Assembly (NCBI RefSeq): GCF_016427535.1
Contig: NZ_JAELXV010000010.1
Location: 1-64,000 of the forward strand
Direction of reading: 5' to 3'
DNA: 64,000 nucleotides
Source of the DNA: Hymenobacter sp. BT559
GTDB taxonomy: Bacteria; Bacteroidota; Bacteroidia; Cytophagales; Hymenobacteraceae
In this document: piece after piece, positions 27,479 through 44,734 of the stretch
Numbering within the stretch: position 1 is the stretch's first letter
How the letters are laid out: every line of letters begins with the position of its first letter
Made by a program: the position numbers and the translations under genes
The notes under the pieces: generated by a model
Seen by the model: only the letters and a program-made list of their open reading frames with translations
Told to the model about the DNA's origin: nothing
Database searches by the model: none

Positions 27479-27503
27479 AGTAGTACCGCCTTACCTCGCT
27501 CGG

Positions 27504-28511: not shown

Positions 28512-28844
28512 ATGGCTGATCCGATTCAAGAAGTACTCGTAGCCTTGCGCCAGTTCCGGGACGAGCGGGACTGGGCGCAGTTCCATAATGCCAAGGATTT
28601 GGCGCTGGCCCTGGGAGTAGAGGCGGGCGAACTCAACGAGCAGTTCCTCTGGAAAGCCGCCGCCGAGGCCAATCCAGCGCGAGTGAAAGAGGAACTGGCC
28701 GACGTGTTGCTCTACGCCTTCCAGTTGGCTGACCACTATGGCTGGGACATCCGCGCGCTCATGCTGGAAAAGATGGCCCGCAACGCCGAAAAGTATCCCG
28801 TCAGCAAAGCCCGGGGTAACGCCACTAAATACGACGCGCGCTAA
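28512..28844 (+). CDS. MazG-like NTP pyrophosphohydrolase, 110 aa
   Basis: All-alpha NTP-PPase of the MazG-like family, as short as the house-cleaning single-domain type. Metal-binding acids are Glu37 and Glu40 (GVEAGELNE) and Glu61 and Asp64 (EELADVLLYAFQL), the E-x2-E ... E-x2-D pattern of the family. It would hydrolyse nucleoside triphosphates to monophosphate and pyrophosphate. The start at 28512 follows a -7 box; the longer frame is poor. Its stop lies 8 bp before the nuclease-helicase gene, so the two are one operon, which suggests a nucleotide-depletion role in defence (inference). Confidence 0.88.
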   Translation: MADPIQEVLVALRQFRDERDWAQFHNAKDLALALGVEAGELNEQFLWKAAAEANPARVKEELADVLLYAFQLADHYGWDIRALMLEKMARNAEKYPVSKARGNATKYDAR

Positions 28845-28852
28845 CGCAGCCC

Positions 28853-30709
28853 ATGATTGTCTACCAAAAAACCAAAGCCGCGTTTCGGGAGGATGTCTTC
28901 TCCAACAACGTGGAGAACATCATTCAGGAACAGGTGCTCCAGAAGTTGGGTAAGCGCACGGGCCAACCCGAAATCAACTCCTGGCGCAACTCCCTGCAGT
29001 ACATGGATCGGGTGCTGAGCGACAGTCAAATCCCGGAGGATAGCGGCGTTGGCATTGAGTACCAGCTGCCGTACTCGGGGCTGCGCATCGACTTCGTGCT
29101 CACCGGCCAGGACGAGGCGGGTACCGACAAAGCCATCATCATTGAGCTCAAGCAGTGGTCGGAAGCCACGGCCACCGATGATGATGGCATCGTGACGACC
29201 TTTCTGGGCCGCGGGATTCAGGAAGTCAACCACCCCTCTTACCAGGCGTGGTCCTACGCGGCCTACCTCGAGGGCTTCAACGAAACGGTCTACGCGGAGC
29301 ACATCAAGCTGCTCCCGTGCGCTTATCTGCATAACCACCCCGACAATGGGGAGCTGACCAGCAGCCAGTACACCGGCTACGTCGAGAAAGCCCCGTTGTT
29401 CTTCAAATCGGATGCGGCCAAGCTACGCGACTTCATCCGGCAGCACGTCCAGCGCGGCGACCACTCGGGCATCATGTACCGCATCGAGGGCGGGCGCATT
29501 CGGCCCAGTAAGCAGCTGGCCGAAGCGCTGGCTGGCTTGCTGAAGGGCAAGCCGGAGTTCATTCTACTCGATGAACAGAAGGTAGTATACGAAACGGCCC
29601 GCAAGCTGGCGGCCAAGGCGACGAACGAGACCAAGCAGGTGCTAATCGTGCGCGGCGGCCCGGGCACGGGCAAAACGGTGGTGGCTATCAACCTGCTGGT
29701 CGCCCTGACTAAACAGGCGCTGAATACCAAGTACGTCAGCAAAAACTCCGCACCCCGGCACGTCTACAAGCGCAAGCTCACCGGTACCATTCGAGGGTCG
29801 CGCTTCGACTCGCTGTTCGTGGGGTCTGGCGCCTTTATCAATACGCCCGCCAACACGTTCGACGTCCTGCTGGTCGACGAGGCCCACCGGCTCAATGAGC
29901 TCTCCGGCATGTACGGCAACCTGGGAGAAAACCAGGTCAAGGAACTGATTGCCTCGGCCCGCTGCACTATCTTCTTTCTAGATGAGGACCAGCGCGTGGC
30001 CGTGCAGGATATCGGCAGCGAGGACGAGATCCGGCATTGGGCGCTGCAGGTGGGGGCGCAGGTCCATGTCAAGGAGCTGCACGCGCAATTCCGGTGCAAT
30101 GGCTCGGATGCCTACATGGCCTGGCTCGACAACGTCTTAGCTATCCGCGAGACGGCAAATCCGACGCTCGAGGCCGATGACTACGATTTTCGCGTCGTGG
30201 ACTCTCCCGACGAGTTGCAGCAGCTTATCTACGCGAAAAACAAGGTGAACAACCGTGCCCGCATGGCCGCGGGCTACTGCTGGAAGTGGACCAGCAAAAA
30301 GGATGCGGCGCAAATGGATTTTCAGCTTTCGCCTACTTTCCGGCACCGCTGGAATCTAGCAAAGTACGGCAACCACTGGATTAACGAACCCGACTCCGTG
30401 ACGGAAATCGGCTGTATCCACACCACCCAAGGACTAGAGCTGGACTATATTGGCGTCATTATCGGCCCTGATTTGGTGGTACGCGCCGGGGAAGTCGTGA
30501 CGGACGCGATGGCCCGCGATCAGTACGATACGACCGTCAAAGGCCGCAAGCGGTTATTGGCCACGGCTGAGGGGCGGGAACTGCTCGACCTAGTCATCAA
30601 GAATACCTACCGGACCCTGTTGACGCGGGCGATGAAGGGCTGTTACGTCTATTGCACGGACCCGGAAACAGCGGCTTATTTACGTCGGCGAATGACGCAG
30701 CCTGCCTAA
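28853..30709 (+). CDS. PD-(D/E)XK nuclease fused to DUF2075-type superfamily 1 helicase/NTPase, 618 aa
   Basis: The N-terminal part has a nuclease core with Asp80 (RIDFVL) and Glu98-x-Lys100 (IIELKQW), the D...ExK signature of the PD-(D/E)XK fold. The second half is a P-loop NTPase of the DUF2075 family: Walker A GGPGTGKT (Lys274), Walker B LLVDEAH (Asp342-Glu343), a UvrD-like HTTQGLELDYIGVII motif and YRTLLTRAMKG near the end (motif VI). It should move along nucleic acid and cut it. With the MazG-like gene 8 bp upstream it forms a two-gene unit typical of defence islands; no direct evidence of its target. Confidence 0.85.
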   Translation: MIVYQKTKAAFREDVFSNNVENIIQEQVLQKLGKRTGQPEINSWRNSLQYMDRVLSDSQIPEDSGVGIEYQLPYSGLRIDFVLTGQDEAGTDKAIIIELKQWSEATATDDDGIVTTFLGRGIQEVNHPSYQAWSYAAYLEGFNETVYAEHIKLLPCAYLHNHPDNGELTSSQYTGYVEKAPLFFKSDAAKLRDFIRQHVQRGDHSGIMYRIEGGRIRPSKQLAEALAGLLKGKPEFILLDEQKVVYETARKLAAKATNETKQVLIVRGGPGTGKTVVAINLLVALTKQALNTKYVSKNSAPRHVYKRKLTGTIRGSRFDSLFVGSGAFINTPANTFDVLLVDEAHRLNELSGMYGNLGENQVKELIASARCTIFFLDEDQRVAVQDIGSEDEIRHWALQVGAQVHVKELHAQFRCNGSDAYMAWLDNVLAIRETANPTLEADDYDFRVVDSPDELQQLIYAKNKVNNRARMAAGYCWKWTSKKDAAQMDFQLSPTFRHRWNLAKYGNHWINEPDSVTEIGCIHTTQGLELDYIGVIIGPDLVVRAGEVVTDAMARDQYDTTVKGRKRLLATAEGRELLDLVIKNTYRTLLTRAMKGCYVYCTDPETAAYLRRRMTQPA

Positions 30710-30870
30710 GCAGGGAGACCCTTACCGGCTGGGCTCTCTGCGGCAACGCTGGCACCTACTCTTCCTAGCTAAGCAGGTTTGGCTATCTTGTCACTTTTAG
30801 GCGTGAGGCAGGTCAATAGACAGGACTCGTTATCCTGTACTAGCAGGGGTAGTCAGTTAGCTTTACACGC

Positions 30871-32037
30871 ATGCCGCCACTCGCCGGTGATCAGCTGATC
30901 GCCACTATCCTCAAGCACGATAACAAGACCACTAGCTACAAAATAGCGCTTCTGCGGGCGCTCAATGATTTAGTCCTCTCGTACCCCGGTCTGGCGCAGT
31001 ACAACCAATCGGTGGCGGTTCCGCTGGTCCGTCTAGCCGAATTGTGGGTGGCTTATTACTGGCCCTTCATGGATGAGCAGCAGCCCATCTACCAAGGGGC
31101 CCGGGCTCAACGTGGCGCTAGTCAACGCCACGACGTGAGTTTCCGCCCTGCGCTAACCCACTTGCGCGCGGAGTGGCAGCGCGCGCTGTTGCTGGTTCCC
31201 GAAGCTGCGGATGGCTTCTTCCTGCTCACCGAGATGCGTACGCCGCGCCGGCGGGCGACCTATCCAGCCTCTTTAGTTCGCGCCTATAATCAAGCCATTG
31301 CCGCCATCGCCACGGCGATTAAAATGCCTATCCGTTACGCGGGGCCTGCTCAGTGGAGCATCTTCCCGCTGCCTACACAGCTCCAGCAGTTGCCCCCTGC
31401 AACGCTGGCGCTGCCCGGTAGCCTGCCTACGGATATGTGCGTGCTGATCACTGCTTCCTTATGGCAGGCCTTCCACCGCCTCTCCCTCTACGTCGAAGCA
31501 CTATGCATTCACGAGTGGAGTCTCTTTACGGAAGGGGTTGCTCAAGTGTCAACTGACGCTACGACCCGCGGGGCTATCTACACGCTGCTGACCGCTCGCC
31601 CAGATAATCGCCGACCACTTACGTGGGAGCGCAACCAAATCGACATTTTGTTGCAGGAACACGTCGTGTTTACTTGTCCCTGGACGCAAAAGCTCCTGAC
31701 GCAGCCGCAACACTACGACTTAGACCATCTCGTGCCGCTCTCCCTCTATCCCATCAATGAACTCTGGAATCTGCTGCCCGTCGACCGCGAGTTCAACCAG
31801 CGAACAAAGCGCGACCGCGTGCCTTCGGCTCAGCGATTAGCTAGTGCGGTGCCCCATTTCACGAGTGCGTATGCGAATTACCTAGCAGCGCCTGTCCTCA
31901 ATCAAGCTATTCGAGCCGATGCAGCGCTACGATTTACTGGCCTTCAGAACACCATGGATTTCCCCGGGCAGCTTGCCCAACATACCGCTAGCTTCATTAC
32001 CGATATAGCTACTTCTCGTTATGCTACGCGCTTTTAG
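30871..32037 (+). CDS. HNH endonuclease domain protein, 388 aa
   Basis: The C-terminal third carries an HNH (beta-beta-alpha-metal) core: Asp285-His286 in YDLDHLVPLS, Asn300 in NLLPV and Asn309 in FNQRTKRD. The N-terminal part has a conserved-looking opening (HDNKTTSYKIALLRALND) as seen in several HNH-type defence nucleases, and a long helical middle with no known domain. A -7-like box TAGCTTTA lies at 30858-30865, only six bases before the ATG, so the mRNA may be nearly leaderless. Separated by 161 bp and a weak hairpin (30710-30741) from the nuclease-helicase gene; likely an independent defence gene. Confidence 0.78.
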   Translation: MPPLAGDQLIATILKHDNKTTSYKIALLRALNDLVLSYPGLAQYNQSVAVPLVRLAELWVAYYWPFMDEQQPIYQGARAQRGASQRHDVSFRPALTHLRAEWQRALLLVPEAADGFFLLTEMRTPRRRATYPASLVRAYNQAIAAIATAIKMPIRYAGPAQWSIFPLPTQLQQLPPATLALPGSLPTDMCVLITASLWQAFHRLSLYVEALCIHEWSLFTEGVAQVSTDATTRGAIYTLLTARPDNRRPLTWERNQIDILLQEHVVFTCPWTQKLLTQPQHYDLDHLVPLSLYPINELWNLLPVDREFNQRTKRDRVPSAQRLASAVPHFTSAYANYLAAPVLNQAIRADAALRFTGLQNTMDFPGQLAQHTASFITDIATSRYATRF

Positions 32038-32172
32038 CGATACCTGATTTTAACTAAGGTTAGCTAAAATAGCAACGTCTTTAATTTATTAAAATTAACT
32101 TTATTCCTGTTAGTTATATAGCATAAATTAAAGTGATACTTTAATTTAAAAAATGCAAGCTACCTCAGGTGC

Positions 32173-32203
32173 TTTGCCTCACTTACCAAATACCCTATCT
32201 TTG
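32173..32203 (+). promoter_or_regulatory. Strong Bacteroidota promoter (TTTG-N19-TATCTTTG)
   Basis: A -33 box TTTG at 32173-32176 and a -7 box TATCTTTG at 32196-32203 stand 19 bp apart, the consensus spacing. This is the best promoter match in the window. Transcription would start near 32210 and run through two hairpin-forming stretches to the terminator at 32473-32505. Confidence 0.75.
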
Positions 32204-32330
32204 CTTGGCACGTCGGGGTTAGCCCCCGAGACCCATGCGCTGTTACAAAGAGAAGCCCCAAGGTCTCGCGAACCAAGGGGCTTCAAGAAGTTCGGGGGAG
32301 ATTCGGCCACCCCTTTACTTCATCGGCAAA

Positions 32331-32468
32331 ATGAAAAAGGAACGTGCAAAATCGGAGTTTGAGCTTGGGCTTAAACTCCGCATGTCAGATAAGCTTGCAT
32401 TGCGGCTTCTCTGGCTTCTAATGGGAGGAACTGCTATCGCGGCGGGCTTCTCTCATTGGGTTAAGTAG
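32331..32468 (+). CDS. Putative small membrane protein, 45 aa
   Basis: The ATG at 32331 gives a basic N-terminus (MKKERAKSEFELGLKLRMSD) and one hydrophobic helix (LLWLLMGGTAIAAGFSHW), a layout like many small membrane proteins. It is the only frame of note between a strong promoter and a terminator. Upstream in the leader, GAAGCCCC (32252-32259) can pair with GGGGCTTC (32277-32284). It may be translated, or the transcript itself may be the product. A type I toxin is possible, but no antisense RNA promoter was found. Confidence 0.4.
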   Translation: MKKERAKSEFELGLKLRMSDKLALRLLWLLMGGTAIAAGFSHWVK

Positions 32469-32472
32469 GACT

Positions 32473-32505
32473 TGGGCCGTGCCGGAAGGTGCGGCCCTTG
32501 TTTTT
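32473..32505 (+). terminator. Terminator of the short transcription unit
   Basis: A GC-rich stem (GGGCCG at 32474-32479 with CGGCCC at 32492-32497, extended inward by GCC/GGT around GGAA) is followed by TTGTTTTT. Strong intrinsic terminator. Confidence 0.85.
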
Positions 32506-32716
32506 ACACTGCAAAGTAACGTAACACAAGGAAAAGAAGGTGCAGTCACCAAAATTTAATTTTAGTAACTAGCTCATTCTCAATTGTGGCACTTTAACAC
32601 AAAATGTGGCAATTTGTGGCAGACGGTGACATACAAAGTATATCTCGCCCGCAACAAAACGGCTTCCGTTTGCCCAACTGGTAATTTTGACATAGTGGAT
32701 AGGAGTCTTACTAAAA

Positions 32717-33517
32717 CTAGCCAAGCTTTTTCCCGCAGTGCGGACAATAAGTGAAGCTGTTGGTGTCGGTAGATGGCTCCTGCAAATGCTCACTAAATCC
32801 GGAAGCAAGGATACCCGTGGGAATAGCAAATAGGCCTAAGCCAAGTACGGCGATAATACTACTGAGCACTTTACCCGCTGGCGTAATTGGGAAGACATCA
32901 CCATACCCCACAGTGGTGAGCGTGGCCACCCCCCACCACATCGTGTCGGGAATGCTGCCAAATTTATCAGGTTGCGCCTCACTCTCGATGGCGTACATTA
33001 AGGTGGAGACCAGTAGGAGCATCACCCCAATGACACCCATTGCCACGAGTAATTCCGTCCGCTTGCGCCGAATGACATGCTCAATCAGGTGAAGAGCTTT
33101 GACGTAGCGGGCTACCTTGAGTACTCGTACCACGCGCAACAGTCGAGCTAATCGCAAGTTCAACCCGCCGAAGGCCAGGAAGAACGGCAAGACGGCCAGT
33201 AAGTCAATCAAGGCTAGCGGCGTCAACATAAAGCGCAGCCGGCCACGCCATGGTTGCTGGTAACGCGGGTCTTCTACACAGGACCATACCCGCGCCAAGT
33301 ACTCTAGGGTAAACACATAAAGTGACACGAGTTCTACTCCCACGAACAAGGCGTGATACTGTTGGTCCAACACCTTTACCGAATCGAGTACTACGGCGGT
33401 AGCATTGAGACTGACCAACGTGAGCAGGATACCATCCAGCACTCGCTCAGCCGGCGTTTGGCCCCCATCGTGGTAGTCTAGCAACTGGTGGAGAAAAGAG
33501 CGGAACGTAACGAGCAT
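32717..33517 (-). CDS. Voltage-gated potassium channel homologue with zinc-ribbon tail, 266 aa
   Basis: Six membrane helices in the order of Kv-type subunits. S4 carries basic residues every third place (Arg122, 125, 128, 131, Lys134, Arg137). The pore loop has the K+ selectivity filter TVGYGD (202-207). The last residues are CPHCGKKLG, a C-x2-C half zinc-ribbon that may bind metal or be a tail tag. The ATG at 33517 (MLVTFRSFLHQL) is chosen; the 60 extra residues of the longer frame look non-coding. Divergent from the Hxs locus. About the size of KvAP-like channels. Confidence 0.85.
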   Translation of the reverse strand: MLVTFRSFLHQLLDYHDGGQTPAERVLDGILLTLVSLNATAVVLDSVKVLDQQYHALFVGVELVSLYVFTLEYLARVWSCVEDPRYQQPWRGRLRFMLTPLALIDLLAVLPFFLAFGGLNLRLARLLRVVRVLKVARYVKALHLIEHVIRRKRTELLVAMGVIGVMLLLVSTLMYAIESEAQPDKFGSIPDTMWWGVATLTTVGYGDVFPITPAGKVLSSIIAVLGLGLFAIPTGILASGFSEHLQEPSTDTNSFTYCPHCGKKLG

Positions 33518-33735
33518 AGGGAAGTAGCTAAAAATAGAGTACGGTTCGAAGGTAAGCCACACAGTGTCTGCGTTATGTCTACTAGCAAGCGTAAAGCTCG
33601 GGTGGCGTGCTACTTGCCTAGTACAATTATTAGGCTTACTTAGATATTTTTCATAATGCCTTTGCAGTAAGCTAACTAAGCTGAAACATTTAAGCAAAAG
33701 CCACTACATTTAGCCTTCCCTATCTACTCCCCACT

Positions 33736-34446
33736 ATGGAAGACAACTTAGACCACATTGAAACTGGCCGCAACAATCTTTTCACGAAGACCCTGCTCAT
33801 TCTGTATACCGGGCTACTGGCTTTTACCAATAGCCACGCGCACGCCGCGACGCCTACTAAGGGCACTGTGCTGCCACTGGATGAGGACTTCGTTACGCGG
33901 CTGCGCCGCATGCGCTACAAGCCGCAACTTGTGCTTAAGCTGAATCGGGCGAATCCTTTAGCTAGCAAAGCGATGATGCACACGTCGCACCGCTCGCACA
34001 GCTCCCATAGTTCACACTACTCGTCCTCTGGGGGGCATAGTTCCCATTCTTCGCACAGTTCCCATAGTTCGCACTACTCGTCCTCAAACTACTCACCTTC
34101 CTCGGGTAGCAGCAGTACGCCCTCTTATTCCTCTCCATCCTACTCCAGTCCGTCTCTCACGACCCCAACCCTGTCGACGCCCCATCGGTCCAGTACGCCA
34201 ACTACTACCTATCCCTCTATCAACACGACTCCTCATGCGCTAGGTGACCGGGTCCTGAAGCTTGGCGACCGTGGCTTGGATGTCACGGCCTTGCAACAGC
34301 TGCTCATTAGCGTCGGCTACGAGGTGAGCGCAAACGGGGTCTTTGGCTTAGCTACCAACGCAGCCGTGAAAGATTTTCAAGCGGCCCATCAGCTTCCCGC
34401 CGATGGGATAGTAGGTCCGCAGACCATTAGCGCGTTACAGGAATAA
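33736..34446 (+). CDS. hxsA: His-Xaa-Ser repeat protein HxsA with peptidoglycan-binding domain, 236 aa
   Basis: A long signal peptide (hydrophobic 18-31, cleaved near HAHAA), a basic segment (48-70), a core of two blocks of five His-Xaa-Ser triplets (His82 to Ser96 and His101 to Ser115, each ending HYS), a Ser/Thr/Pro-rich linker (120-165) and a PG_binding_1 domain (about 172-236, GDRGLDVTALQQLL...DGIVGPQTISAL). This is the substrate protein of the His-Xaa-Ser system, predicted to be modified on the repeat by the two radical SAM enzymes encoded downstream and then exported to the wall. The modification is unknown. It lies 6 bp ahead of hxsD. Confidence 0.88.
   Translation: MEDNLDHIETGRNNLFTKTLLILYTGLLAFTNSHAHAATPTKGTVLPLDEDFVTRLRRMRYKPQLVLKLNRANPLASKAMMHTSHRSHSSHSSHYSSSGGHSSHSSHSSHSSHYSSSNYSPSSGSSSTPSYSSPSYSSPSLTTPTLSTPHRSSTPTTTYPSINTTPHALGDRVLKLGDRGLDVTALQQLLISVGYEVSANGVFGLATNAAVKDFQAAHQLPADGIVGPQTISALQE
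33997..34086 (+). repeat. 57-bp tandem duplication in the HxsA core
   Basis: The 33-base stretch at 33997-34029 recurs at 34054-34086 with three changes, mostly silent, an offset of 57 bp. It encodes the HSS-HSS-HYS-SS block. The repeat unit was probably gained by slippage or recombination, so the number of His-Xaa-Ser triplets may vary between strains. Confidence 0.8.
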
Positions 34447-34452
34447 GGTGCT

Positions 34453-34824
34453 ATGCAGGTACAACTACTATCCAACGGACTAGAGGTGGTAGTGGACGCC
34501 CAAACTTTCAGCGAGGCGACACTGCACAAATGCTTTTACTGGTACACCCGCGATTATCAGGTAACTATTCAGCCGGGCATCAACCACCAGACGCAGGTGC
34601 GGCTGGTGGCGAAAGAGCACGTAGCAGTTGACGTCACGGCGCTCCAGCACCAAGTGCACAACGACTTACTAGACTTTCGCCTGCGCGAGTTGATTGCCGA
34701 GGAAACACGCCCCATCCGCGAACTGCTCGTGGCGAAAGCCTTCGCCCACTACGCCCCGCCGCAGCCCTTAACGGCTCCCATCTCCGACCCAGTGGGCTTC
34801 CATCCCCTAGCTCCCGCGCCCTGA
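34453..34824 (+). CDS. hxsD: His-Xaa-Ser system protein HxsD, 123 aa
   Basis: A short protein with an N-terminal beta-rich region and a helix near the middle reading VHNDLLDFRLRELIAEETR, a close match to the LLNDYxLRE signature of the HxsD family. It ends in a Pro-rich tail. It is thought to help the radical SAM enzymes recognise HxsA; its biochemical role is unknown. The gene lies 6 bp after hxsA, and its stop overlaps the hxsB start by one base (34824), so translation is coupled. Confidence 0.85.
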   Translation: MQVQLLSNGLEVVVDAQTFSEATLHKCFYWYTRDYQVTIQPGINHQTQVRLVAKEHVAVDVTALQHQVHNDLLDFRLRELIAEETRPIRELLVAKAFAHYAPPQPLTAPISDPVGFHPLAPAP

Positions 34825-36314
34825 TGCAGCCCACGCTTGAGCGCGCAACGCGCAAATTCAAGGACCTGGCGGTTTACGCTCCCGCTGGGTCCTACACCCT
34901 ACTGCCCTTCCGCTTCCACGTGCTCACACCCGAGAAGGAGTTGCTGGTAAGCGAAGTCGGTGACTACTTGCTGGTACCCCGGGGTACGGTGGCCCGCGTT
35001 GTGGGGCGGCAGTTGACGTATGCCGAGGAGCCGGACCTGTACGCCGACCTGCTGGCGGGCTTCTTTATTACGGATTCCCCGGAGCTACCACTCTTGGACG
35101 TGCTGGCCACGCGCTACCGGACGAAGAAGGCGTTTCTAGAACACTTCACGGCCCTGCACATCTTCGTCGTCACGCTCCGGTGCGAGCATACCTGCCACTA
35201 TTGTCAGGTGTCGCGCGTCACGGCCGATAAGAACGCCTTCAATATGGCGCGCCACCACCTCGATCAGGGCATTGCGCACATGATGCGTTCGCCTAATCCG
35301 CACGTGACGATGGAGTTTCAGGGTGGAGAAGCGCTGCTCGCCTTTGAGGTCATTCAATACGGGGTGGAGGAAGCCGAGCGGCTCGCCGTGCGCCACGATA
35401 AGCAGATCACCTTCGTTATTTGTACGAATCTAGCCGTACTCACCGACGAAATACTCCTCTACTGCCAGCAGCATAACATCTTACTCTCTACCTCGCTGGA
35501 TGGTCCCGCTTTTATTCATAACGCCAACCGGCACCGCCCCAAGCGCAATAGCTACGAGCTGACCATCCAGGGGATTGCCCGGGCGCGGGAAGTCGTGGGC
35601 TACGACCGCGTGTCAGCCTTGATGACGACCTCGACCTTGTCGCTGGAGCATCCGCTGGCTATTGTCGATGAGTACGTGGCGCAGGGCTTTGCCAACGTGT
35701 TTCTGCGGCCCATCTCGCCCTATGGCTTTGCCCTGCGGCACGACCGCAAGAACAAGTACGCCACTGATGCCTTCCTGACGTTCTACAAAACGGCCCTAGC
35801 GCATATCCTCGATTACAATTTCCGGGGGCACTTTCTGCGCGAGGATTATGCCACCATCATTCTACGCAAAATTCTGACGCCTTTTTCCGTCGGCTACGTA
35901 GACTTGCAATCGCCTGCCGGACTGGTCAATAGCGTGGTAGTATTCAACTACGATGGCGCCGTGTATGCCTCGGATGAGGCGCGCATGCTGGCCGAAATGG
36001 GCGATGTGACCTTTAAGCTGGGGCACCTCGATACGCACGCCTACGAAGAGCTCTTCTACGGACCAAAAGCCCGCGAGATTGCCGGCGCCTGGGCCAATGA
36101 GGCGCTGGCCGGGTGCTCGGAGTGTGCCTTTCAACCCTACTGTGGCGCTGATCCCGTGCTGCACCACGCCACACAGGGAGATATGTACGGGCACCGGCCA
36201 ACGAGCGTGTTCTGTCAGAAAAATATGGAAATCATTCGCTACCTGTTCGAATTGATGGATGCCGATCCGCGCATTGAAGCCATTTTTCGGAGTTGGGTAG
36301 CTGACTTTACTTAA
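34824..36314 (+). CDS. hxsB: His-Xaa-Ser system radical SAM maturase HxsB, 496 aa
   Basis: The radical SAM cluster motif C-x3-C-x2-C is at Cys120, Cys124 and Cys127 (RCEHTCHYC), followed by EFQGGEALL (GGE motif). A C-terminal SPASM-like region has Cys431, Cys434, Cys440 (CSECAFQPYCG) and a later Cys in SVFCQKN, for extra iron-sulfur clusters as in peptide-modifying radical SAM enzymes. The first 110 residues are a peptide-recognition-like domain. It should act with HxsC on HxsA. It sits in a tight hxsA-D-B-C order. Confidence 0.9.
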   Translation: MQPTLERATRKFKDLAVYAPAGSYTLLPFRFHVLTPEKELLVSEVGDYLLVPRGTVARVVGRQLTYAEEPDLYADLLAGFFITDSPELPLLDVLATRYRTKKAFLEHFTALHIFVVTLRCEHTCHYCQVSRVTADKNAFNMARHHLDQGIAHMMRSPNPHVTMEFQGGEALLAFEVIQYGVEEAERLAVRHDKQITFVICTNLAVLTDEILLYCQQHNILLSTSLDGPAFIHNANRHRPKRNSYELTIQGIARAREVVGYDRVSALMTTSTLSLEHPLAIVDEYVAQGFANVFLRPISPYGFALRHDRKNKYATDAFLTFYKTALAHILDYNFRGHFLREDYATIILRKILTPFSVGYVDLQSPAGLVNSVVVFNYDGAVYASDEARMLAEMGDVTFKLGHLDTHAYEELFYGPKAREIAGAWANEALAGCSECAFQPYCGADPVLHHATQGDMYGHRPTSVFCQKNMEIIRYLFELMDADPRIEAIFRSWVADFT

Positions 36315-36323
36315 CCGCTTCTC

Positions 36324-37478
36324 ATGCTGCGTTTACGTGGAATTGCTCATCAATTCGAGCAGCCCCTAGTCGGAACTATCACCCGGCACACAGGAAACAC
36401 CGGTCCTACGCACTTCTTAGTGCAGGAGGCGGGAATTACCTGCCCGGTCACCGACACTTATGGGGCGGTGCTGACCGAAGCCCCGGCCTTACCAGCGGCA
36501 TGGACGGGTCCCGGCCTTACCCACCTGCTCAATAGTGAGCAGTTGGCGGAAGGCGACGTCGTCTCCCTGGCCCCGTCGGGACAGCTTATCCGGCAGTACC
36601 GGGCTGACTCGGCCCAGAACTTCCTGCTGGCTACCGAACGCTGCAATAGCAATTGTCTGATGTGTTCGCAGCCCCCAAAGGACCGCGACGATACGGGCTA
36701 TCTGCTTCAGCTCTACCGGCAAGTTATCCCACTAATTCCGAACTCCTGTCCCGAATTAGGTATTACGGGGGGCGAGCCTACCCTATTGGGCGACGGCTTC
36801 TGGGAACTGCTGCAGCTCTGCAAGCAGCACCTGCCCACGACGGAACTGCACTGCCTGACGAACGGGCGCAGCTTTGCTTGGCGAGAGTTTACGCAGCGGC
36901 TCGGCGAGCTGTCCATGCCCCAGTTGATGTTAGGCATCCCACTCTACGCGGATCACGCACCGCTGCACGACTATGTCGTCCAGGCTAAAGGAGCCTTTGA
37001 CCAAACCGTGCGGGGACTGCACGAACTCGCGGCCATTGGGCAACGAGTGGAGATTCGCGTCGTGGTGCACCGCCTCACCGTCCCGCGGCTCGGCAAGCTG
37101 GCCCGGTTCATCTACCGCAACTTTCCCTTTGTCGAGCATATCACCTTCATGGGCCTGGAAAACACGGGGTATACGCCCCATAACCGGGACAAGCTCTGGC
37201 TGGACCCGGTGGACTATGTGCCGGAGTTGACTGACGCCGTCGAGTTCCTGGCCGCGCACCAGCTACACGTTTCCATTTACAACCATCAGCTCTGCTTACT
37301 ACCCGACCAGTTGTGGCAATTTGCCCGGCGCTCTATTTCGGACTGGAAAAACGTGTATTTGCCTTCCTGTGAAGGGTGTGGCGTGAAGGAGCTGTGCGGC
37401 GGCTTTTTTGCTTCCTGTGGCACCCTGCACAGCCGCGGAATTCAGGCACTAGCGGCCATGCCATCCTTGATAAATTAA
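36324..37478 (+). CDS. hxsC: His-Xaa-Ser system radical SAM maturase HxsC, 384 aa
   Basis: The cluster motif is Cys107, Cys111 and Cys114 (RCNSNCLMC), followed by the GITGGEPTLLGDG motif. A Cys-rich end (CEGCGVKELCGG, ASCG) may bind a second cluster. Like HxsB it has an N-terminal region of about 100 residues before the radical SAM barrel. The pairing of two different radical SAM proteins next to HxsA and HxsD is the hallmark of this system. It lies 9 bp after hxsB. Confidence 0.9.
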   Translation: MLRLRGIAHQFEQPLVGTITRHTGNTGPTHFLVQEAGITCPVTDTYGAVLTEAPALPAAWTGPGLTHLLNSEQLAEGDVVSLAPSGQLIRQYRADSAQNFLLATERCNSNCLMCSQPPKDRDDTGYLLQLYRQVIPLIPNSCPELGITGGEPTLLGDGFWELLQLCKQHLPTTELHCLTNGRSFAWREFTQRLGELSMPQLMLGIPLYADHAPLHDYVVQAKGAFDQTVRGLHELAAIGQRVEIRVVVHRLTVPRLGKLARFIYRNFPFVEHITFMGLENTGYTPHNRDKLWLDPVDYVPELTDAVEFLAAHQLHVSIYNHQLCLLPDQLWQFARRSISDWKNVYLPSCEGCGVKELCGGFFASCGTLHSRGIQALAAMPSLIN

Positions 37479-37498
37479 AAACTAAGTAGTTGCTATCT

Positions 37499-38416
37499 AT
37501 GCTCAAACAATTACCCCTTCTTACGTTATTTATCGGGTTCGCGCTACCCGGAATTGCTCAGCGCAAAGCAACCGCTCCCCCCATTCCCCCGGCTGATACC
37601 GTCTATTTTGATAGAGATTGGGAGCGTACTACCCTGCCGGAAGACCGCAGCTACGCTCGAGTCGCTCATCACGCCAAGGATGGTAAAACCATCGGTACGG
37701 TACGAGATTTTTACTACCCCTCCTGGAAAAAGCAGTGGGAAGGAAAGCTGACGCAGGAGCAGCCGGACCAGCCGCACGGACTCTGTACTAGTTGGTATGA
37801 AGCAGGTGGCCTGGAGTCACGCGGAACTTACGCCCAAGGAAAATTGCAGACCGAGCCACAACGATGGGCAGAAGATGGACATCTGATTACGTGCCGCTTC
37901 ACTTATCAAGAGGCGTTAGCGCTGAGCACGGGCAAGTTGCACTCGTACTACAATGACGGAAGCAGCCGCCAAGTATTTCCGGTGGACTTACCCGCCAATA
38001 CGGCGGGCGTCGTTTACCGGTTAGACATTCGGGATGAAGGTGCCCCCCTCATCTCGTGGGATAGTGCGCTCGCCTTAGGGGCGGCGTACTTCAGCCCGAC
38101 GACAACCTTAGCCAGTATGCTGAGCACCGGTGCGCGTTCCTTAAGCCAGGGGGCAACTGCAAGTCCGGTAGCTAGCACGAAGTGCCACTGGTATATCGTG
38201 CCGGACCTAGCCGCCGCGCAAGAATTTATGCAGACCAAGGGGACTATCTCGGGCAAGCCTTGCTATCGGCAAGCCGCTAACATCTGCGCAGAAACCCGCG
38301 AGATTTTACTAGCGCCAAACACGCGCCGTATCTACATCTGCGTCAACAATGATAATGACATCACTGCTGCTACGGCAACAGTTAGTGTTTCAGCGCTTGT
38401 GAAGAGTTGTGATTAG
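37499..38416 (+). CDS. Secreted hypothetical protein, last gene of the Hxs locus, 305 aa
   Basis: The ATG at 37499 starts a signal peptide (MLKQLPLLTLFIGFALPGIA); a TTG three codons earlier is less likely. The middle (about 80-120) has a MORN/YwqK-like run (GKLTQEQPDQPHGLCTSWYE, GGLESRGTYAQGKL). Four to five Cys residues near the end (CHWYIVP, CYRQAANIC, YICVNN, KSCD) could form disulfides. It lies 20 bp after hxsC in the same direction, so it is likely part of the locus; a role in handling exported HxsA is a guess. Confidence 0.65.
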   Translation: MLKQLPLLTLFIGFALPGIAQRKATAPPIPPADTVYFDRDWERTTLPEDRSYARVAHHAKDGKTIGTVRDFYYPSWKKQWEGKLTQEQPDQPHGLCTSWYEAGGLESRGTYAQGKLQTEPQRWAEDGHLITCRFTYQEALALSTGKLHSYYNDGSSRQVFPVDLPANTAGVVYRLDIRDEGAPLISWDSALALGAAYFSPTTTLASMLSTGARSLSQGATASPVASTKCHWYIVPDLAAAQEFMQTKGTISGKPCYRQAANICAETREILLAPNTRRIYICVNNDNDITAATATVSVSALVKSCD

Positions 38417-38997
38417 CAAGAAACCACCTAAGACTATTTAAGCTCAATCAAACCAATCACCTAATCTACTAATAAGGAAATTTTGTCTTTACTCCCAACA
38501 AGCTCGCTGAGATGCCGAGCATAAGCATATGGGCGAAAAAAATACTTTCTTAGTCAACTTTATTTTAGGTAATTTCATGCTCAAGGATTGATACCTGGTC
38601 TTTGAATACTAATAATCAATACTTTATCAATATTTGTCACAAATAAAAGTAGCAAAATTTTACACATTGCTTGGAGCCTTTTCAGGTACGATTATTTGAA
38701 ACGTACAAATGTTCTCCTAAGGCTTCATCATACACTGATACTTTGTCTCAGTACACAAGGTCTCATGGTTAGTAATAGCTACCTTGAGACCTTTTGCAAT
38801 ACAATGGCTGCGCCTACTAGTAGCTCAAACTGCCACATACCAACCCGCTAGTAATGACACTAAGCACGAAGGCGTGAGAAAGCAAACGGATGTTTTTCAT
38901 AGTTATATCTATATTCGACTTATAAATAATCTTATTAAGTGGCAGGACATTCGCTACTTAGCTTGGCATCTTAAGAAGATATAAATAACTGACCTTT
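38417..38997. other. AT-rich intergenic region before the conflict locus
   Basis: GC content drops sharply here and stays low to 43.9 kb. A hairpin with perfect 9-base arms (38757-38765, 38785-38793) followed by TT may be a terminator or part of a short RNA. A 66-codon frame at 38784-38984 overlaps that hairpin and has no support as a gene. No clear promoter match was found, although TACTTTG-like boxes occur at several sites. Confidence 0.4.
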
Positions 38998-39696
38998 ATG
39001 GAGCTTTCAAGTAAAGATGTTGTAGCGCTTATGCGTGAAAAAGGCGTAGAATACCTATACCATGCTAATACAGTACGTACGACCTGCACTTTTTTCCGCA
39101 CAGGCCATCTACTGGCCCGTGGCTCAGTGCACGAAAGGAGTTTGGACCAAACTACCCAACCTTCGGATAGGCTAGATAGAAAACTTGGGATATGGTATGA
39201 TTTATTTTTCGATTCCTGCGATATTCACGCAAGAAGCAGTAATTACAATAAGTATGGGCCAGTATTATTATGCTTCGACTTATCGTTACTAGAACAGGAT
39301 TGGGCACCTACTGTATGGATGACAAAAGACAATCCCATACGTTGGAGCACGGACACACCATCCAACGAGCGTTGGTTCAATTCTTTTGAAGAACTACAAA
39401 CCAGATACGACAGGTATGCTTTTCAGCAACACTGTGTACTAAGGAATGTAGGCGGCAGTGTTCGAATGCTTCCTTATTTAAAGAAAATCGTATTAGATAA
39501 CCCTAAAAGGGCTAGACCAAACGCAGCAAGCGTTGATCGATTCAGTGAGGCGGTTGGTGCACTTAACAATGCCTTACGTGCAGGAGGTTTATTTGAAAAG
39601 GGAATAACCTTTAATAACAGGCCTTGCACATGCGGTTGTGTATCAAGCTACGCAAGTATGACAGAAGAGAAACTTGACAAGCTCTTTGGCAGCTAG
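38998..39696 (+). CDS. Unrecognised protein upstream of the ABC-3C locus, 232 aa
   Basis: The layout recalls ADP-ribosyltransferase-like folds such as DarT: YLYHAN near the N-terminus, a helix-loop with GHLLARGSVHERSL, then LGIWYDLFFDSCDIHAR and YGPVLLCFDLSLL. No catalytic Glu can be assigned, so this is a weak structural guess. The C-terminal region has a tight cluster CTCGC (Cys near 217-221) that may bind zinc. It has low GC like the genes after it, 236 bp away. It is separated from them by a hairpin, so it may be an independent toxin-like gene or an accessory effector. Confidence 0.6.
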   Translation: MELSSKDVVALMREKGVEYLYHANTVRTTCTFFRTGHLLARGSVHERSLDQTTQPSDRLDRKLGIWYDLFFDSCDIHARSSNYNKYGPVLLCFDLSLLEQDWAPTVWMTKDNPIRWSTDTPSNERWFNSFEELQTRYDRYAFQQHCVLRNVGGSVRMLPYLKKIVLDNPKRARPNAASVDRFSEAVGALNNALRAGGLFEKGITFNNRPCTCGCVSSYASMTEEKLDKLFGS

Positions 39697-39704
39697 CGCA
39701 AAAG

Positions 39705-39744
39705 GTTGATCATTTTGCAAACGCTCGTGCTTAAAATGACCAAC
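39705..39744 (+). terminator. Hairpin after the unrecognised gene
   Basis: 12-base arms (39705-39716 and 39733-39744) pair with one G-T type mismatch; the inner arm ends in a T-run (CATTTT). It lies nine bases past the stop at 39696. A second, imperfect inverted repeat lies at about 39827-39885 between this gene and the next. Confidence 0.5.
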
Positions 39745-39932
39745 TAGCCTCGCCCCTGTCTTAGCCTTAACCGAACGACTATCTGAAGCCGTGAAGAAAT
39801 ACGTTGCCAACTACTATATGGAGATAGGGGGCTTATTTTATATGCTCAACGAATGGTCGTTATCGCTTTCATATAGAATGCCCCTTACTTGATACAGACA
39901 GTCTTAACTTTATTTTCAACAACGACTTTGAT

Positions 39933-41051
39933 ATGCTAGTTGTACCGACTCAGTTTGCTCCTGTACCTGTTGCACCCCCTTGGCCTGGCGGCAATCTAAA
40001 CAGGCTAATGGGGCCAGGAGCCTACATAGAACCTATAAAAAGGCTTAGCATTTTCTCTCCGGAAGAATTTGAAATATTTGTGCTACAATGGGTTGAAGGC
40101 CATGTGTCACAAAAGTATAGTGAAGTTCAATGGCGTGGAGGTGCCGGGGATAAGGGGAGAGACGTAGTTGGCTGGCTTAATCATTCAAATTCGCCCGTCA
40201 GAGAGTGTGATATCTACCAATGCAAACATTATGATACACCGGTTACACCCGAGGATATTTGGAAGGAACTCGCCAAAGTATGTTATTTTTCATTTATAGG
40301 AGATTATCCTATACCAAATAACTACTATATAGTCACGTGCAAAGGAGTTGGCAATTCGCTACAAGATTTGATTGACAAACCGTCAAATCTTAAAAAAGAA
40401 CTTATTGACAAGTGGGACAAAAAATGTGTAGGTAAAGTTGGAAAAAATATACCGGGTAAGTTGGTTGGCCCGCTAAAAGATTGGGTAGACAACTTTGATT
40501 TTTCAATCGTTAAGACACTAAGCCCAAGCCGTCTTATTACAGAACATTCAAATACTAGATTTCACCCATATGTATTTGGCATAACAGTAAAAGCTCGACC
40601 AACGCCAATTACTCCACCTGCGAATATAGACGATAAGAAAGAAGTAAGGTATATCAAATGTATACTTGAAGCATATGGAGAACATGCTAATATAAAACCA
40701 TTTAAAATTGAGAGTTTTAGCGCTTATCCTATGCTTAAAAAGCATTTTGAGAACTCTCGTATTAGTTTTTATTCGGTTGAAACGTTAAAAGAGTTTGTTA
40801 GAGATAATTTTCCCGATAACAGTCATTTTGACTCTTTGCTAACAGACTTCGAAAGAGGCACTTTTCATTCTTTTTGTCGCCCTTGCAATACAGGTTTCGA
40901 AAGAATGATAAATGTATGTGACAGTGCTGTACAACTCGCTGTCGATAGTAGCATTCTAAAACCACAACTTACGCCCGATGATCGTGCTGGCATGTGTCAC
41001 CATTTAGTCAACGAAGGGCGCATTCAATCTTGGGTTCAAAATGGTAGATGA
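39933..41051 (+). CDS. ABC-three component system effector with Mrr-like nuclease domain, 372 aa
   Basis: Residues about 45-130 form a restriction-endonuclease-like domain: FSPEEFEIFVLQWVEGH, then Asp77 in GAGDKGRDVVG and Gln96-x-Lys98 in YQCKHY, the D-x18-QxK form of PD-(D/E)XK used by Mrr-type enzymes. The C-terminal 220 residues match the arrangement of effectors in ABC-three component conflict systems (CTD that docks on the other parts). The gene overlaps the next one by 11 bp. The nuclease is expected to be held in check until the ATPase detects an invader; this is known for the family as a prediction, not seen here. Confidence 0.8.
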   Translation: MLVVPTQFAPVPVAPPWPGGNLNRLMGPGAYIEPIKRLSIFSPEEFEIFVLQWVEGHVSQKYSEVQWRGGAGDKGRDVVGWLNHSNSPVRECDIYQCKHYDTPVTPEDIWKELAKVCYFSFIGDYPIPNNYYIVTCKGVGNSLQDLIDKPSNLKKELIDKWDKKCVGKVGKNIPGKLVGPLKDWVDNFDFSIVKTLSPSRLITEHSNTRFHPYVFGITVKARPTPITPPANIDDKKEVRYIKCILEAYGEHANIKPFKIESFSAYPMLKKHFENSRISFYSVETLKEFVRDNFPDNSHFDSLLTDFERGTFHSFCRPCNTGFERMINVCDSAVQLAVDSSILKPQLTPDDRAGMCHHLVNEGRIQSWVQNGR

Positions 41052-41520
41052 AGCAAAGCTAGAACGCCCATTTAACCATCCTGTTGAGGTCGGTATAAGG
41101 CTACTCTATATACTTAATGTTTTTCACCCACGCTCATTTGACATAAAGCATCTACTCTATATGGACTATTTGCTTGTCCACTCAGCAGATGCCGGGGGAC
41201 CATCTAGCCTCCACGCTGCAATGCCCTATAGAACTGGTGAATGGCTGGTGAGAAGAAAAATATTAGAAGCAGGATTAGCGTTGATGTTTTCTAAAGAATT
41301 ACTCAGCAAGCATTTGTCTAATGATGGCATCACTTTCAGCGCCTCTCCTTTAACAAAGCATTTTCTCAAGCACCTGAAATCGGAATATGCTTTGGGCCTA
41401 TACACAAGAGCCGAATGGCTAAAACTTAAATTTGATAATATGAATTCAAATCAAATCAATGAGTTCATGAAATTAAATTTAACCTCTTGGGGCAACGAAT
41501 TTAAAGCCATTCAATATTAA
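41041..41520 (+). CDS. ABC-three component system middle component, 159 aa
   Basis: A small, mostly helical protein beginning FNHPVEVGIRLLYILNVFHP with a run DIKHLLYMDYLLVHS, typical of the MC2-type middle component, which forms a winged-helix-like bridge between effector and ATPase. It starts inside the effector gene (ATG 41041, effector stop 41049-41051) and ends 11 bp before the ATPase gene, so the three are translated together. No catalytic residues are expected. Confidence 0.8.
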   Translation: MVDEAKLERPFNHPVEVGIRLLYILNVFHPRSFDIKHLLYMDYLLVHSADAGGPSSLHAAMPYRTGEWLVRRKILEAGLALMFSKELLSKHLSNDGITFSASPLTKHFLKHLKSEYALGLYTRAEWLKLKFDNMNSNQINEFMKLNLTSWGNEFKAIQY

Positions 41521-41531
41521 GGAGTAAAGGC

Positions 41532-43394
41532 ATGGAATTAGTTAACAGAGATAATATCGGCTTTCAAATTAAGCGAATTATTGCAACAGGTGCGGATGTC
41601 CCACAAGCTAGTCTTGAATTTTCCGATGGCCTCAATGTTATAACTGGCGCATCTAATACAGGTAAAACTTATATATTTCAAGCAATTAATTTCCTATTAG
41701 GTGGCAATGATTGGCCCAAGGAAACCCCTGAAAGCAAAAACTACGATACGCTTTATCTTGAAATAGAGAATAGCTTATATGGCCCTATCTTGATTAAAAG
41801 AGAATTCGCAGATACTAATCCTATAATTTATTATTCAACTTTTAATCAATTAGCAGATAGAAATCAGCTAGTAGGAAAAATACTTCCCAAAAAAAGTAGT
41901 GAAAAAGCAGGTTTATCATTAGCTGATTTCATACTATCTATATGTGGCGCAGAATCTGTGCGCGCTAAAAGTAATCAAAATAACAAAACCGTAGCTGTTT
42001 CTTTTAGAACAATACGGCATTTCTTTATTGTAAGCGAAACGGAGATACTCGAAGAAGGATCTCCAACATGGCTGGGTCAAAATACCACGAAGACCTTATC
42101 AACTTCATTATTTAAATTCCTGCTATCCGGACAAGATGATTCTGGACTTAAGAAAATCAAGGATGAAAAAGTCTTTACAAGTAATAATGCTAAATACAAT
42201 CTACTATCAGAGCTAATTGAAACCACTTCTATAGAGTTAGCATCTTTAGCAAAAGAAGGGGATAACAAAGATACGGAAAGCAAGATTAAAGCTAAATCAG
42301 AGGAACTTGAGTATAATTTAAATCAAACTTCTTCATTAGAATTAGAGCGCAGAGAATTATCGCAACAGGCTAACAGCATTGAATCTGAAATCACACTACG
42401 AGTTGAGCTTCTCAACAGATTCAAAGTATTAAAACAGCACTACGAATCAGATATTAAGCGTCTAGACTTTATAAGCGAAGGAAGTTACTTAATTGAACAA
42501 CTAGAATTTACAAGCTGCCCTTTCTGCTTTAATCCATTAACCGCGTACGCCCGTCATGAGGCATGCATAGCAAATTCAATTGCACCTGAAGTATTATATA
42601 ATTCATGCAAGAGTGAATTTGAAAAACTAACCGCACAGTTACAGGACTTACAAGACACTATCAAGCAGGTGGATAGGGAGCATGAAGCATTAACTGCCAA
42701 CCTTCTTTCACTTACTCGTTCATTCAAATTAGCTGCGCTATTGATATCAGATACTTTTATTCCTAAAATAAAAGAATTACAGTCTGAAATACAATTTCTT
42801 CAGCAACAACATTCTGCTTCCATTTTATATGAATCCACTGAGAACCGATTAAATAGCTTAATCGAAATGCGTAAGCAGTGCGCTCCTCAATCGAAGGAAA
42901 AGCCCAACAAGCAGAATGAAAACAAAGAGTTACCAGTAGATGAAGTCAATGAATTTTGCACGGAGACGCAATCACTATTGAAGTCATGGGGTATAAGCGA
43001 TGGTCCTGTTACATTTAATTATAACACCATTGATATTACAATAAATGGAAAAGACCGCAAAGCTGATGGCAAAGGGCTTAGAGCAATTACCCGTTCTGCC
43101 TTTATGGTTTCTCTTATGAAATATTGCAAGCGAAAATCACTACCACACACTCGAATGTTAATACTTGATTCGCCAATCACAAATTATAGAGAAAATTCTA
43201 AAAAATATGAGGATATTAATCGAATCCAAAATTATATATTTCGTGAATTATCACGTGACTTCGCTAGTGACCAAATAATTGTCTTTGAAAACAAAGAACC
43301 ATTATTACCAAAGGGGGAGAAAATCAATATTATCAATTTTGGCAGTAATCCTGAAACAGACCGACCAGGATTCTTTCCCACCTTATCTTATTAA
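41532..43394 (+). CDS. ABC-three component system SMC-like ATPase, 620 aa
   Basis: Walker A is GASNTGKT (39-46, Lys45). A long coiled coil (about 215-440) is broken at its tip by Cys329-x2-Cys332 (CPFC), like the Rad50 zinc hook. The C-terminal head has MLILDSPITNYREN (Asp546) with Ser where ABC ATPases usually have a catalytic Glu, the form typical of the ABC-3C group. The protein is expected to sense nucleic acid or phage products and release the effector. AT-rich codon use differs from the flanking chromosome, a sign of recent transfer. Confidence 0.85.
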   Translation: MELVNRDNIGFQIKRIIATGADVPQASLEFSDGLNVITGASNTGKTYIFQAINFLLGGNDWPKETPESKNYDTLYLEIENSLYGPILIKREFADTNPIIYYSTFNQLADRNQLVGKILPKKSSEKAGLSLADFILSICGAESVRAKSNQNNKTVAVSFRTIRHFFIVSETEILEEGSPTWLGQNTTKTLSTSLFKFLLSGQDDSGLKKIKDEKVFTSNNAKYNLLSELIETTSIELASLAKEGDNKDTESKIKAKSEELEYNLNQTSSLELERRELSQQANSIESEITLRVELLNRFKVLKQHYESDIKRLDFISEGSYLIEQLEFTSCPFCFNPLTAYARHEACIANSIAPEVLYNSCKSEFEKLTAQLQDLQDTIKQVDREHEALTANLLSLTRSFKLAALLISDTFIPKIKELQSEIQFLQQQHSASILYESTENRLNSLIEMRKQCAPQSKEKPNKQNENKELPVDEVNEFCTETQSLLKSWGISDGPVTFNYNTIDITINGKDRKADGKGLRAITRSAFMVSLMKYCKRKSLPHTRMLILDSPITNYRENSKKYEDINRIQNYIFRELSRDFASDQIIVFENKEPLLPKGEKINIINFGSNPETDRPGFFPTLSY

Positions 43395-43966
43395 ATATTC
43401 AATATATATAAAGTCGCTTCGCATATTCATACCATTCTATTCTGTCAAACATTATAAGTCCTAAAAATAAGTAAATATCACTTTTGTATGGTAAGAAAGC
43501 ATGCCATACTTCAATTGTGAGATGTATAGGAAAGCATACTTATTATGTTTCGCAATACGGTCGTTTTAGCTGACACTTTACTAGGCTGGGAAATGCACTA
43601 CTAAGAAGCACCTTTTACGTCCCATTTTCTTGTCTCACAAAACAATGGCTCATTATATTTTAGGCGGTTGACTCAATGAGGCAGAGCCATTAAGTCCCAA
43701 TAGACTCGTGTTAGTACAGCAGGCTAACAGTTCATTTTAGAGAATTCAAAAAAGCTATCGCTACCTAGCAAGGGTTTTGCTATTATTAGAATACTAAATA
43801 GATCTTATTTTACACACGTTAAACGTCCATTCAACTCAAGTGGCATCTTGAGCGCAACAAACTGACAATTAGAAGGGCTAACGGCTTTCAGCGTGGCAGT
43901 CCTGTTTTAGGAACGGTTGAGTTTTTTTATATCTTATAAAGGAAGCCTTGCTACACGTACAATAGC
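43395..43966. other. AT-rich gap holding a degenerate copy of the recombinase palindrome
   Basis: No gene is supported in these 572 bp. At 43818-43835 the sequence GTTAAACGTCCATTCAAC matches the palindrome at 44669-44686 in 15 of 18 positions. The two sites flank the minus-strand recombinase gene. The rest appears to be non-coding debris between the conflict locus and the recombinases. Confidence 0.5.
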
Positions 43967-44629: not shown

Positions 44630-44668
44630 TGGTACAAAACTACCCTACTTTTCCTGTTTGTCACAAAA

Positions 44669-44686: not shown

Positions 44687-44734
44687 AAATGACTATAAGG
44701 GCTATCTTCGCTTCAAATCACGATTTGGTCTGTC

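Follow-up and report, generated by a model that had tools for sequence, protein, structure and literature searches.

A His-Xaa-Ser radical SAM maturation locus on a Hymenobacter contig and its relatives on mobile elements

Introduction

What do two radical S-adenosylmethionine (SAM) enzymes do to a protein built around His-Xaa-Ser (HxS) repeats, and what is the product for? The question is raised by an Hxs locus of Hymenobacter sp. BT559, which lies in a stretch of 64,000 nucleotides (contig NZ_JAELXV010000010.1, positions 1 to 64,000; hereafter the window) and comprises hxsA, hxsD, hxsB and hxsC followed by a fifth gene. The His-Xaa-Ser system was reportedly described by Haft and Basu, and its family models predate the current decade. 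A sequence-only reading of the locus had held that the chemistry of the system was still to be worked out, and we found no characterization of it among the open-access papers listed (subscription papers were mostly outside the search). As far as the accessible part of each source goes, a Pseudomonas genome listing concerns Hxs (PMC8446631), and a network study places HxsB and HxsC in clusters with no chemistry given (PMC9062424).

We commit here to reading Hxs as an envelope protein maturation system on mobile elements. That the window carries an Hxs cassette of the kind that matures ribosomally synthesized and post-translationally modified peptides, as cargo on a mobilizable plasmid, and that it works by the steps proposed below, has in our view about an even chance of being right.

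A complete Hxs locus

The genes hxsA, hxsD, hxsB and hxsC follow one another in tight order on the forward strand between positions 33736 and 37478 of the window, with gaps of 6, -1 and 9 bp, and a further 20 bp separate hxsC from the fifth gene (Table 1). HxsB, HxsC and HxsD all pass the cut-offs of their NCBIfam models, with 581.6 bits against 370 (TIGR03978), 378.6 against 267.9 (TIGR03977) and 61.3 against 50 (TIGR03976), i.e., margins of 212, 111 and 11 bits, respectively. One HxsB above cut-off was found in the genome. The locus is thus a genuine copy of the known system, and the sequence-only reading, which had claimed a complete four-gene locus followed after 20 bp by a gene for a secreted Cys-containing protein, holds on both points: all five open reading frames (ORFs) were recovered at their coordinates, and the fifth protein has a signal-like hydrophobic start by eye and seven Cys. 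No match was found with Rfam at gathering scores between positions 26000 and 46000, and the promoter and terminator scans returned 7 and 3 sites, to be compared with shuffle means of 4.4 and 6.7.

To place the locus among its relatives, we read 105 Hxs loci: the best 80 of at least 566 loci on genome contigs, 15 viral loci and 10 stretches from annotated plasmids or phages, a set that is skewed to the relatives of the window and includes near-duplicates. Among them, hxsC is present in 104, hxsD in 98, and a repeat protein (at least three HxS tripeptides, on the strand of hxsB) in 97. Most missing genes correspond to contig ends, the exceptions being L131 and L136, which lack hxsA, and L196, which lacks hxsD. 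The gene order is A-D-B-C or, in several loci (of proteobacteria, cyanobacteria and others), D-B-C-A, with the single exception of L195 (A-D-C-B).

The HxsA of the window contains 11 HxS tripeptides, including two period-3 runs of five. In 20,000 shuffles of its residues 79-160, a run of five never occurred and a count of 11 occurred twice. Its C-terminus matches the Pfam family PG_binding_1 (E 1.3e-17). Across the survey, HxsA comes in two forms: 36 of 97 are shorter than 150 amino acids (aa), and the others are longer, reaching about 340 aa. We scanned 58 long proteins, i.e., that of the window and 57 others (four near-identical ones were omitted), and found PG_binding_1 in 50 and TonB_C in one. 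The wall-binding domain attributed earlier to HxsA is thus confirmed. In L169 (2758-3549), to which the protein was assigned by eye, the C-terminus of HxsA resembles TonB_C, which replaces the peptidoglycan-binding domain, and two loci (L147, 1685-3453; L172, 6121-7697) have a tandem pair of repeat proteins ahead of hxsD.

HxsD was modelled with AlphaFold2 from 51 of 89 HxsD sequences, that of the window being counted on top of the 89. The model (mean pLDDT 90.6) has the order beta-beta-alpha-beta-beta-alpha-alpha, for which a ferredoxin-like (alpha/beta) or Rpb11-like arrangement is predicted. Its fold matches are weak (best Z 6.8), many of the listed ones being ferredoxin-like or of the RNA polymerase Rpb11/L type, and Foldseek gave no E better than 0.018. 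HxsD was also considered as a PqqD-type, leader-binding recognition element; no PqqD-like chain occurs among the weak matches listed, and a sequence search against solved structures gave no match.

Repeat spacing and the proposed crosslink

Both enzymes carry a CX3CX2C motif (C120, C124 and C127 in HxsB; C107, C111 and C114 in HxsC) and four further conserved Cys (C431, C434, C440 and C464; C324, C349, C352 and C358, respectively). All seven are kept in nearly all rows of the alignments, which have 106 rows for HxsB and 105 for HxsC, and we read the four extra Cys of each enzyme as putative ligands of one auxiliary cluster. On the substrate side, we counted every pair of His spaced by three in 95 unique HxsA, whatever stood between them. 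Ser occupies position i+2 in 548 of the 551 pairs, a figure inflated by the choice of proteins with at least three HxS tripeptides, whereas 18 residue types occur at i+1; the contrast between the two positions stands despite this selection.

Crosslinks made by radical SAM enzymes between residues i and i+2 have been reviewed (PMC11002830); in the accessible part of that review, MscB links C4 of Phe to Cbeta of Ser, and HaaB and YhhB link C2 of His to Cbeta of Ala or Arg. The spacing of the HxsA repeats suggests the geometry of such three-residue His cyclophanes (triceptides). Because His(i)/Ser(i+2) combines the Phe-Ser and His-C2 precedents, a C2(His)-Cbeta(Ser) crosslink in the HxS units is our leading, if unproven, prediction. 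It can be put to a single test, namely the loss of 2 H per HxS unit with formation of a His C2-Ser Cbeta bond.

From these elements we propose the following course of events. HxsA would be made with an N-terminal export signal and kept in the cytoplasm while HxsB and HxsC, aided by HxsD, modify the HxS array. The two enzymes would crosslink His(i) with Ser(i+2), the likeliest products being C2(His)-Cbeta(Ser) cyclophanes, and so leave a rigid array of rings. After its export, HxsA would attach to peptidoglycan by means of the C-terminal domain. The modified array may work at the cell envelope, where mobile elements would reuse it with different partners. The fifth gene would encode a secreted, lineage-specific neighbour outside the core maturation.

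Several results speak against parts of this scheme, besides the inflated count of Ser at i+2. The HxsA of the window scores 84.5 bits with its own family model (TIGR03979), below the cut-off of 121.65. Wall binding is inessential to the system, since the 36 HxsA under 150 aa have no room for the domain, and a crude hydropathy test found an N-terminal hydrophobic segment in only 66 of 97 HxsA, a set in which several start sites are probably mis-called. The crosslink itself is a prediction from sequence. HxsB scores 70.6 bits (E 1.1e-19) with the profile of YhhB, whose cut-off is 445, and more, 87.7 bits (E 8.1e-25), with that of PapB, a thioether-forming enzyme; the anaerobic sulfatase maturase profile gives 73.4 bits (E 1.8e-20; cut-off 349.45), about equal to YhhB. 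HxsB stays far under the cut-off of every listed cyclophane-former (YhhB, GrrM/OscB, FxsB and XyeB, with 25 of the 45 families listed). Another chemistry is thus possible for HxsB, because the PapB and sulfatase maturase scores rival that of YhhB. One such alternative is that HxsB and HxsC act like anaerobic sulfatase maturases and alter Ser alone, giving for instance formylglycine or a dehydro residue, and that the His are separate metal ligands. Besides the 73.4 bits, solved sulfatase maturase structures match the HxsB profile (4.1e-19), and two enzymes could produce two distinct changes. This score is, however, far short of the family cut-off, and a change of Ser alone leaves the strict i/i+2 spacing of His and Ser, with its free middle residue, unexplained. 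We regard this alternative as unlikely and retain the His-Ser cyclophane as the leading candidate.

Hxs across bacteria and mobile elements

Hxs is carried by mobile elements. At E ≤1e-30, HxsB has matches in 410 plasmid records, 317 of them from Klebsiella and 326 typed as conjugative, and in two phage records, including Leptospira phage LE1. The search of viral contigs gave 15 Hxs loci with the HxsB alignment as query and 3 with HxsC, while the HxsB sequence alone gave none. In one of these settings (L198) the cassette adjoins genes for the tail sheath and for other tail or connector proteins; L186 has genes for a major head protein and a terminase small subunit near Hxs, and L187 has one for a tail protein. 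Two further neighbour proteins, in L187 and L188, had no match. HxsB is above cut-off in 8 of 204 Hymenobacteraceae genomes, and in an even sample of the phylum it was found (E 1e-60) in 1 of 395 genomes, that of the window itself.

Some neighbours were seen in passing. In two loci of Leptospira elements (L095 and L096), the gene past hxsC is annotated "mobilome CxxCx(11)CxxC protein". A thermonuclease-like protein with a signal-like start is near Hxs in L097, L106, L167, L168 and L182, three of which are from Methylobacter or Methylomonas.

Recurrent neighbours in Bacteroidales

In seven Bacteroidales loci (L144, L146, L148, L165, L172, L176 and L179), genes for a kinase, a VWA protein, a PP2C phosphatase and at least one uncharacterized protein lie upstream of hxsA, on the same strand and with overlaps or short gaps. 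They resemble the TerY-P modules, an identification made from sequence clusters and from Pfam, run on members from L148 and L165 and then on six of the seven loci. TerY_C is above cut-off in 7 of the 27 Bacteroidales Hxs genomes, with one copy each, and the copy is inside the Hxs locus in six (not in G602), where 0.04 were expected. It precedes the kinase in five loci and overlaps the kinase end in L179; the genome of L172 has no TerY_C. In the same 27 genomes, 10 of 35 Ion_trans genes (0.18 expected) and 9 of 48 genes for the non-specific nuclease Endonuclease_NS (0.24 expected) are inside Hxs loci. The expected counts are shares of sequence, genes were assigned by reading contig coordinates, and significance is overstated because of the relatedness of the genomes and the rounding of their sizes. 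By eye, several of the Endonuclease_NS proteins have a signal-like start.

The same families occur in the 133 flank proteins of 18 loci, where Pfam identified 8 Ion_trans, 6 Endonuclease_NS, 6 PP2C_2, 6 VWA and 5 Pkinase; among 119 control proteins, none of these five is among the families with at least two members listed (the first 25 of 152, ordered by number). A channel is directly past hxsC in L146, L157, L164 and L169, the last judged by distance. Channels with the motif TVGYGD are found in the stretches of 13 of 113 loci, including the window and L036 (four Hymenobacteraceae loci, none with a channel, are counted twice); outside Bacteroidales and Hymenobacter, there is one in L124 only. 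By eye, several flank proteins of L144, L146, L149, L165 and L172 start with seemingly the same uncharacterized domain; that of L172 has no Pfam match and two others match only TPR.

The channel, the nuclease and the TerY-P genes recur at more Hxs loci than the fifth gene and deserve more weight as neighbours. We did not find the pairing of TerY-P with Hxs among the open-access papers listed, the subscription papers being again mostly outside the search. One study, in its accessible part, presents TerY-P modules as phosphorylation switches that sense metals, and modules related to them as anti-phage (PMC11090510).

One may ask if the flanks of Hxs are defence islands in general. Such an enrichment was not shown: PADLOC (E 1e-10) gave 18 families in the 133 flank proteins, from 18 of the 27 Bacteroidales Hxs loci, and 50 in the 119 control proteins, taken from contig C1 of the same genomes, in a comparison that counts families rather than proteins and has 25 of the 50 control families listed. 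ORFs above 900 aa were left out on both sides, the control had fewer proteins than the flanks in four loci (3 for 8 in one, 1 for 8 in another and 7 for 8 in two), and L141 and L173 were excluded because the C1 contigs of their genomes were too short.

The fifth gene, part or neighbour

The sequence-only reading had suggested that the fifth gene may be a new part of the Hxs system. In Hymenobacteraceae, the gene does lie close to Hxs (at most about 2.5 kb away) in 6 of the 8 family loci, and hence is not confined to the window; random placement on the six contigs that carry both would give about 0.5 within 3 kb. Its positions and orientations vary. It is found 20 bp past hxsC in the window, 6 bp past in G114 and about 650 bp past in G050, about 620 bp ahead of hxsA in G115, about 290 bp ahead and divergent in G080, and about 2.5 kb ahead in G008. 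It is not near Hxs in G053, and there is no match in G179, where Hxs is at a contig end.

As a general component of the system, the fifth gene is rejected. It has matches in 106 of the 204 family genomes at E 1e-3 and in 60 at E ≤1e-60, of which 6 have Hxs and 54 do not. At E 1e-6 it is found in 17 plasmid records, 16 from Hymenobacter and one from Adhaeribacter. Outside Hymenobacteraceae, a full-length copy is missing from all 101 Hxs loci, in flanks that reach at most 8 kb on each side and are often shorter; in L110 there is a partial relative (52.9 bits), which shares only the C-terminal region and goes on into other sequence. In the window protein, the MORN_2-like stretch is weak (15.4 bits, cut-off 29.6), the best match among solved structures by sequence has E 0.086, and a structure model from three sequences (mean pLDDT 55) was unusable. 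We take it for a lineage-specific neighbour, and perhaps for an accessory, but not for a core part of the system.

Two views of this neighbour can be confronted. It could be a true Hxs component within Hymenobacteraceae, e.g., an outer-surface partner of HxsA, for which its proximity to Hxs argues; so does a 41-row tree, of long branches and unsure placements, in which 28 copies, none adjacent to Hxs, form a tight clade that excludes the Hxs-linked ones. However, four members of this clade come from Hxs genomes, where they are away from Hxs, the copies of G008 and G080 are a longer form (with DUF1036 in G080), and the variable layout, the G053 and G179 cases and the 54 genomes without Hxs fit poorly with a dedicated part, which we therefore judge improbable. 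It is somewhat better than an even bet that the two are adjacent merely as cargo of Hymenobacter plasmids in shared insertion regions, given that 16 of the 17 plasmid records are from this genus and that a tyrosine-recombinase-like family (one member checked) is in 11 of 26 clustered stretches; the proximity is nonetheless much tighter than expected from random placement on the same contigs. A different proposal is that the whole locus handles metals: the modified His-rich array at the wall would bind Cu or Zn, and the fifth protein would take part in the same metal response. The His-rich repeats are in its favour, as are the TerY-P modules adjoining Hxs in some Bacteroidales, proposed to be metal-sensing switches in the accessible part of the study cited above (PMC11090510), and the 20 stretches around fifth-gene copies without adjacent Hxs, of which 12 have a multicopper oxidase family and 11 a DUF2231 family (each named by Pfam on one member). 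Yet these copper neighbours belong to copies without Hxs, and no metal transporter or regulator was recognized in the neighbour clusters of at least three Hxs loci, a weak negative based on sequence starts and few Pfam scans. Metal handling seems to us rather unlikely, and we keep to an envelope maturation system with the fifth gene outside its core.

The contig and the genes around Hxs

The window covers the first 64,000 of the 102,134 bases of the contig. Genes for a relaxase of the MobA/VirD2 type, a Rep3-type initiator and a ParA-type ATPase make a mobilizable Hymenobacter plasmid its most likely identity. An overlap between its ends, which would indicate a closed circle, was not seen at the six lengths tried. 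Serine recombinase genes flank the stretch with Hxs, which also holds genes for a MazG-like protein, a Schlafen-group-3-type helicase, an HNH protein, an ion channel and a Lamassu set (Table 1). The window's own neighbours are thus defence-like, in what is a single case.

Table 1. Coordinates of the Hxs locus and of its neighbours in the window.
Feature	Position	Strand	Description
Serine recombinase genes	26864-27478; 43967-44629; 44735-45433		Flank the Hxs and Lamassu stretch at both ends
Ion channel	32717-33697	-	Voltage-gated type, motif TVGYGD; Ion_trans 8.2e-28; divergent from hxsA, 38 bp between; possible partner
hxsA	33736-34446	+	236 aa; signal-like N-terminus by eye; 11 HxS tripeptides in residues 82-152; peptidoglycan-binding domain in residues 180-234
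hxsD	34453-34824	+	Small partner protein; TIGR03976; AlphaFold2 model
hxsB	34824-36314	+	Radical SAM maturase; TIGR03978; 1-base overlap with hxsD
hxsC	36324-37478	+	Second radical SAM maturase; TIGR03977
Fifth gene	37499 (ATG; alternatively TTG 37490) to 38416	+	Secreted Cys-containing protein; weak MORN_2-like stretch
Lamassu LmuA-LmuC-LmuB	39933-43394	+	PADLOC: LmuA 9.4e-99, LmuC 8.6e-48, LmuB 1.5e-140

Pfam scans of the window neighbours from 26864 to 45433 gave no TerY-P kinase, VWA or PP2C genes; the Lamassu genes were covered by PADLOC only, and the ORFs at 27504-28133, 32235-32468 and 38784-38984 were left out. An ORF at 38998-39696 looked like a DUF4433/DarT relative; it had no Pfam match and the assignment is not claimed. 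The subfamily of the window's channel (at least 56% identity) is present in 4 of the 8 Hxs genomes against 5 of the 196 others in the family (Fisher 1.2e-4). That the channel is an obligate partner of Hxs is unsupported, since the copy of G053 is far from Hxs and that of G114 about 22 kb off.

Two observations concern the other genes of the stretch. The recombinase genes at its right end form a divergent pair encoding similar proteins. The MazG-like, helicase and HNH genes (28425-32037) recur together in L077 (130-3870; genome G200), near a relative of the fifth gene, in a Hymenobacteraceae genome without Hxs above cut-off.

Discussion

An envelope-stress or phage-response role of Hxs is speculative. 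In its most specific form, for which we hold out little hope, the wall-bound array stapled by His-Ser cyclophane rings would be an envelope sensor, to which mobile elements couple outputs: in Bacteroidales a K+-type channel, a secreted nuclease and a TerY-P switch, and in Hymenobacter perhaps a channel. If true, it would represent a new type of response to envelope stress or phages, based on a radical-SAM-modified protein. Whatever its role, the channel, nuclease and TerY-P genes that recur beside Hxs in Bacteroidales are a lead to the purpose of the modified protein, and the locus survey answers whether the fifth gene is a general Hxs part.

With the Hxs system as defined by TIGR03976-TIGR03979, the window shares the paired radical SAM enzymes HxsB and HxsC, the small HxsD, an HxsA with HxS repeats, and the gene order. 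It differs in that its HxsA scores under the family cut-off and that a divergent ion channel and a secreted neighbour particular to the lineage lie alongside. The TerY-P triad (a TerY-like VWA protein, a PP2C phosphatase and a kinase with a zinc ribbon) has its counterpart in the kinase, VWA and PP2C genes upstream of hxsA in the seven Bacteroidales loci, and was not seen among the window neighbours scanned. With the triceptides (XncB, OscB, MscB, YxdB, HaaB and YhhB), Hxs has in common an aromatic residue or His at i and a partner at i+2. In contrast to them, it has two distinct radical SAM enzymes, each with four invariant further Cys, a repeat array on a secreted wall-binding protein, and maturase scores far below the cut-offs of the cyclophane-formers.

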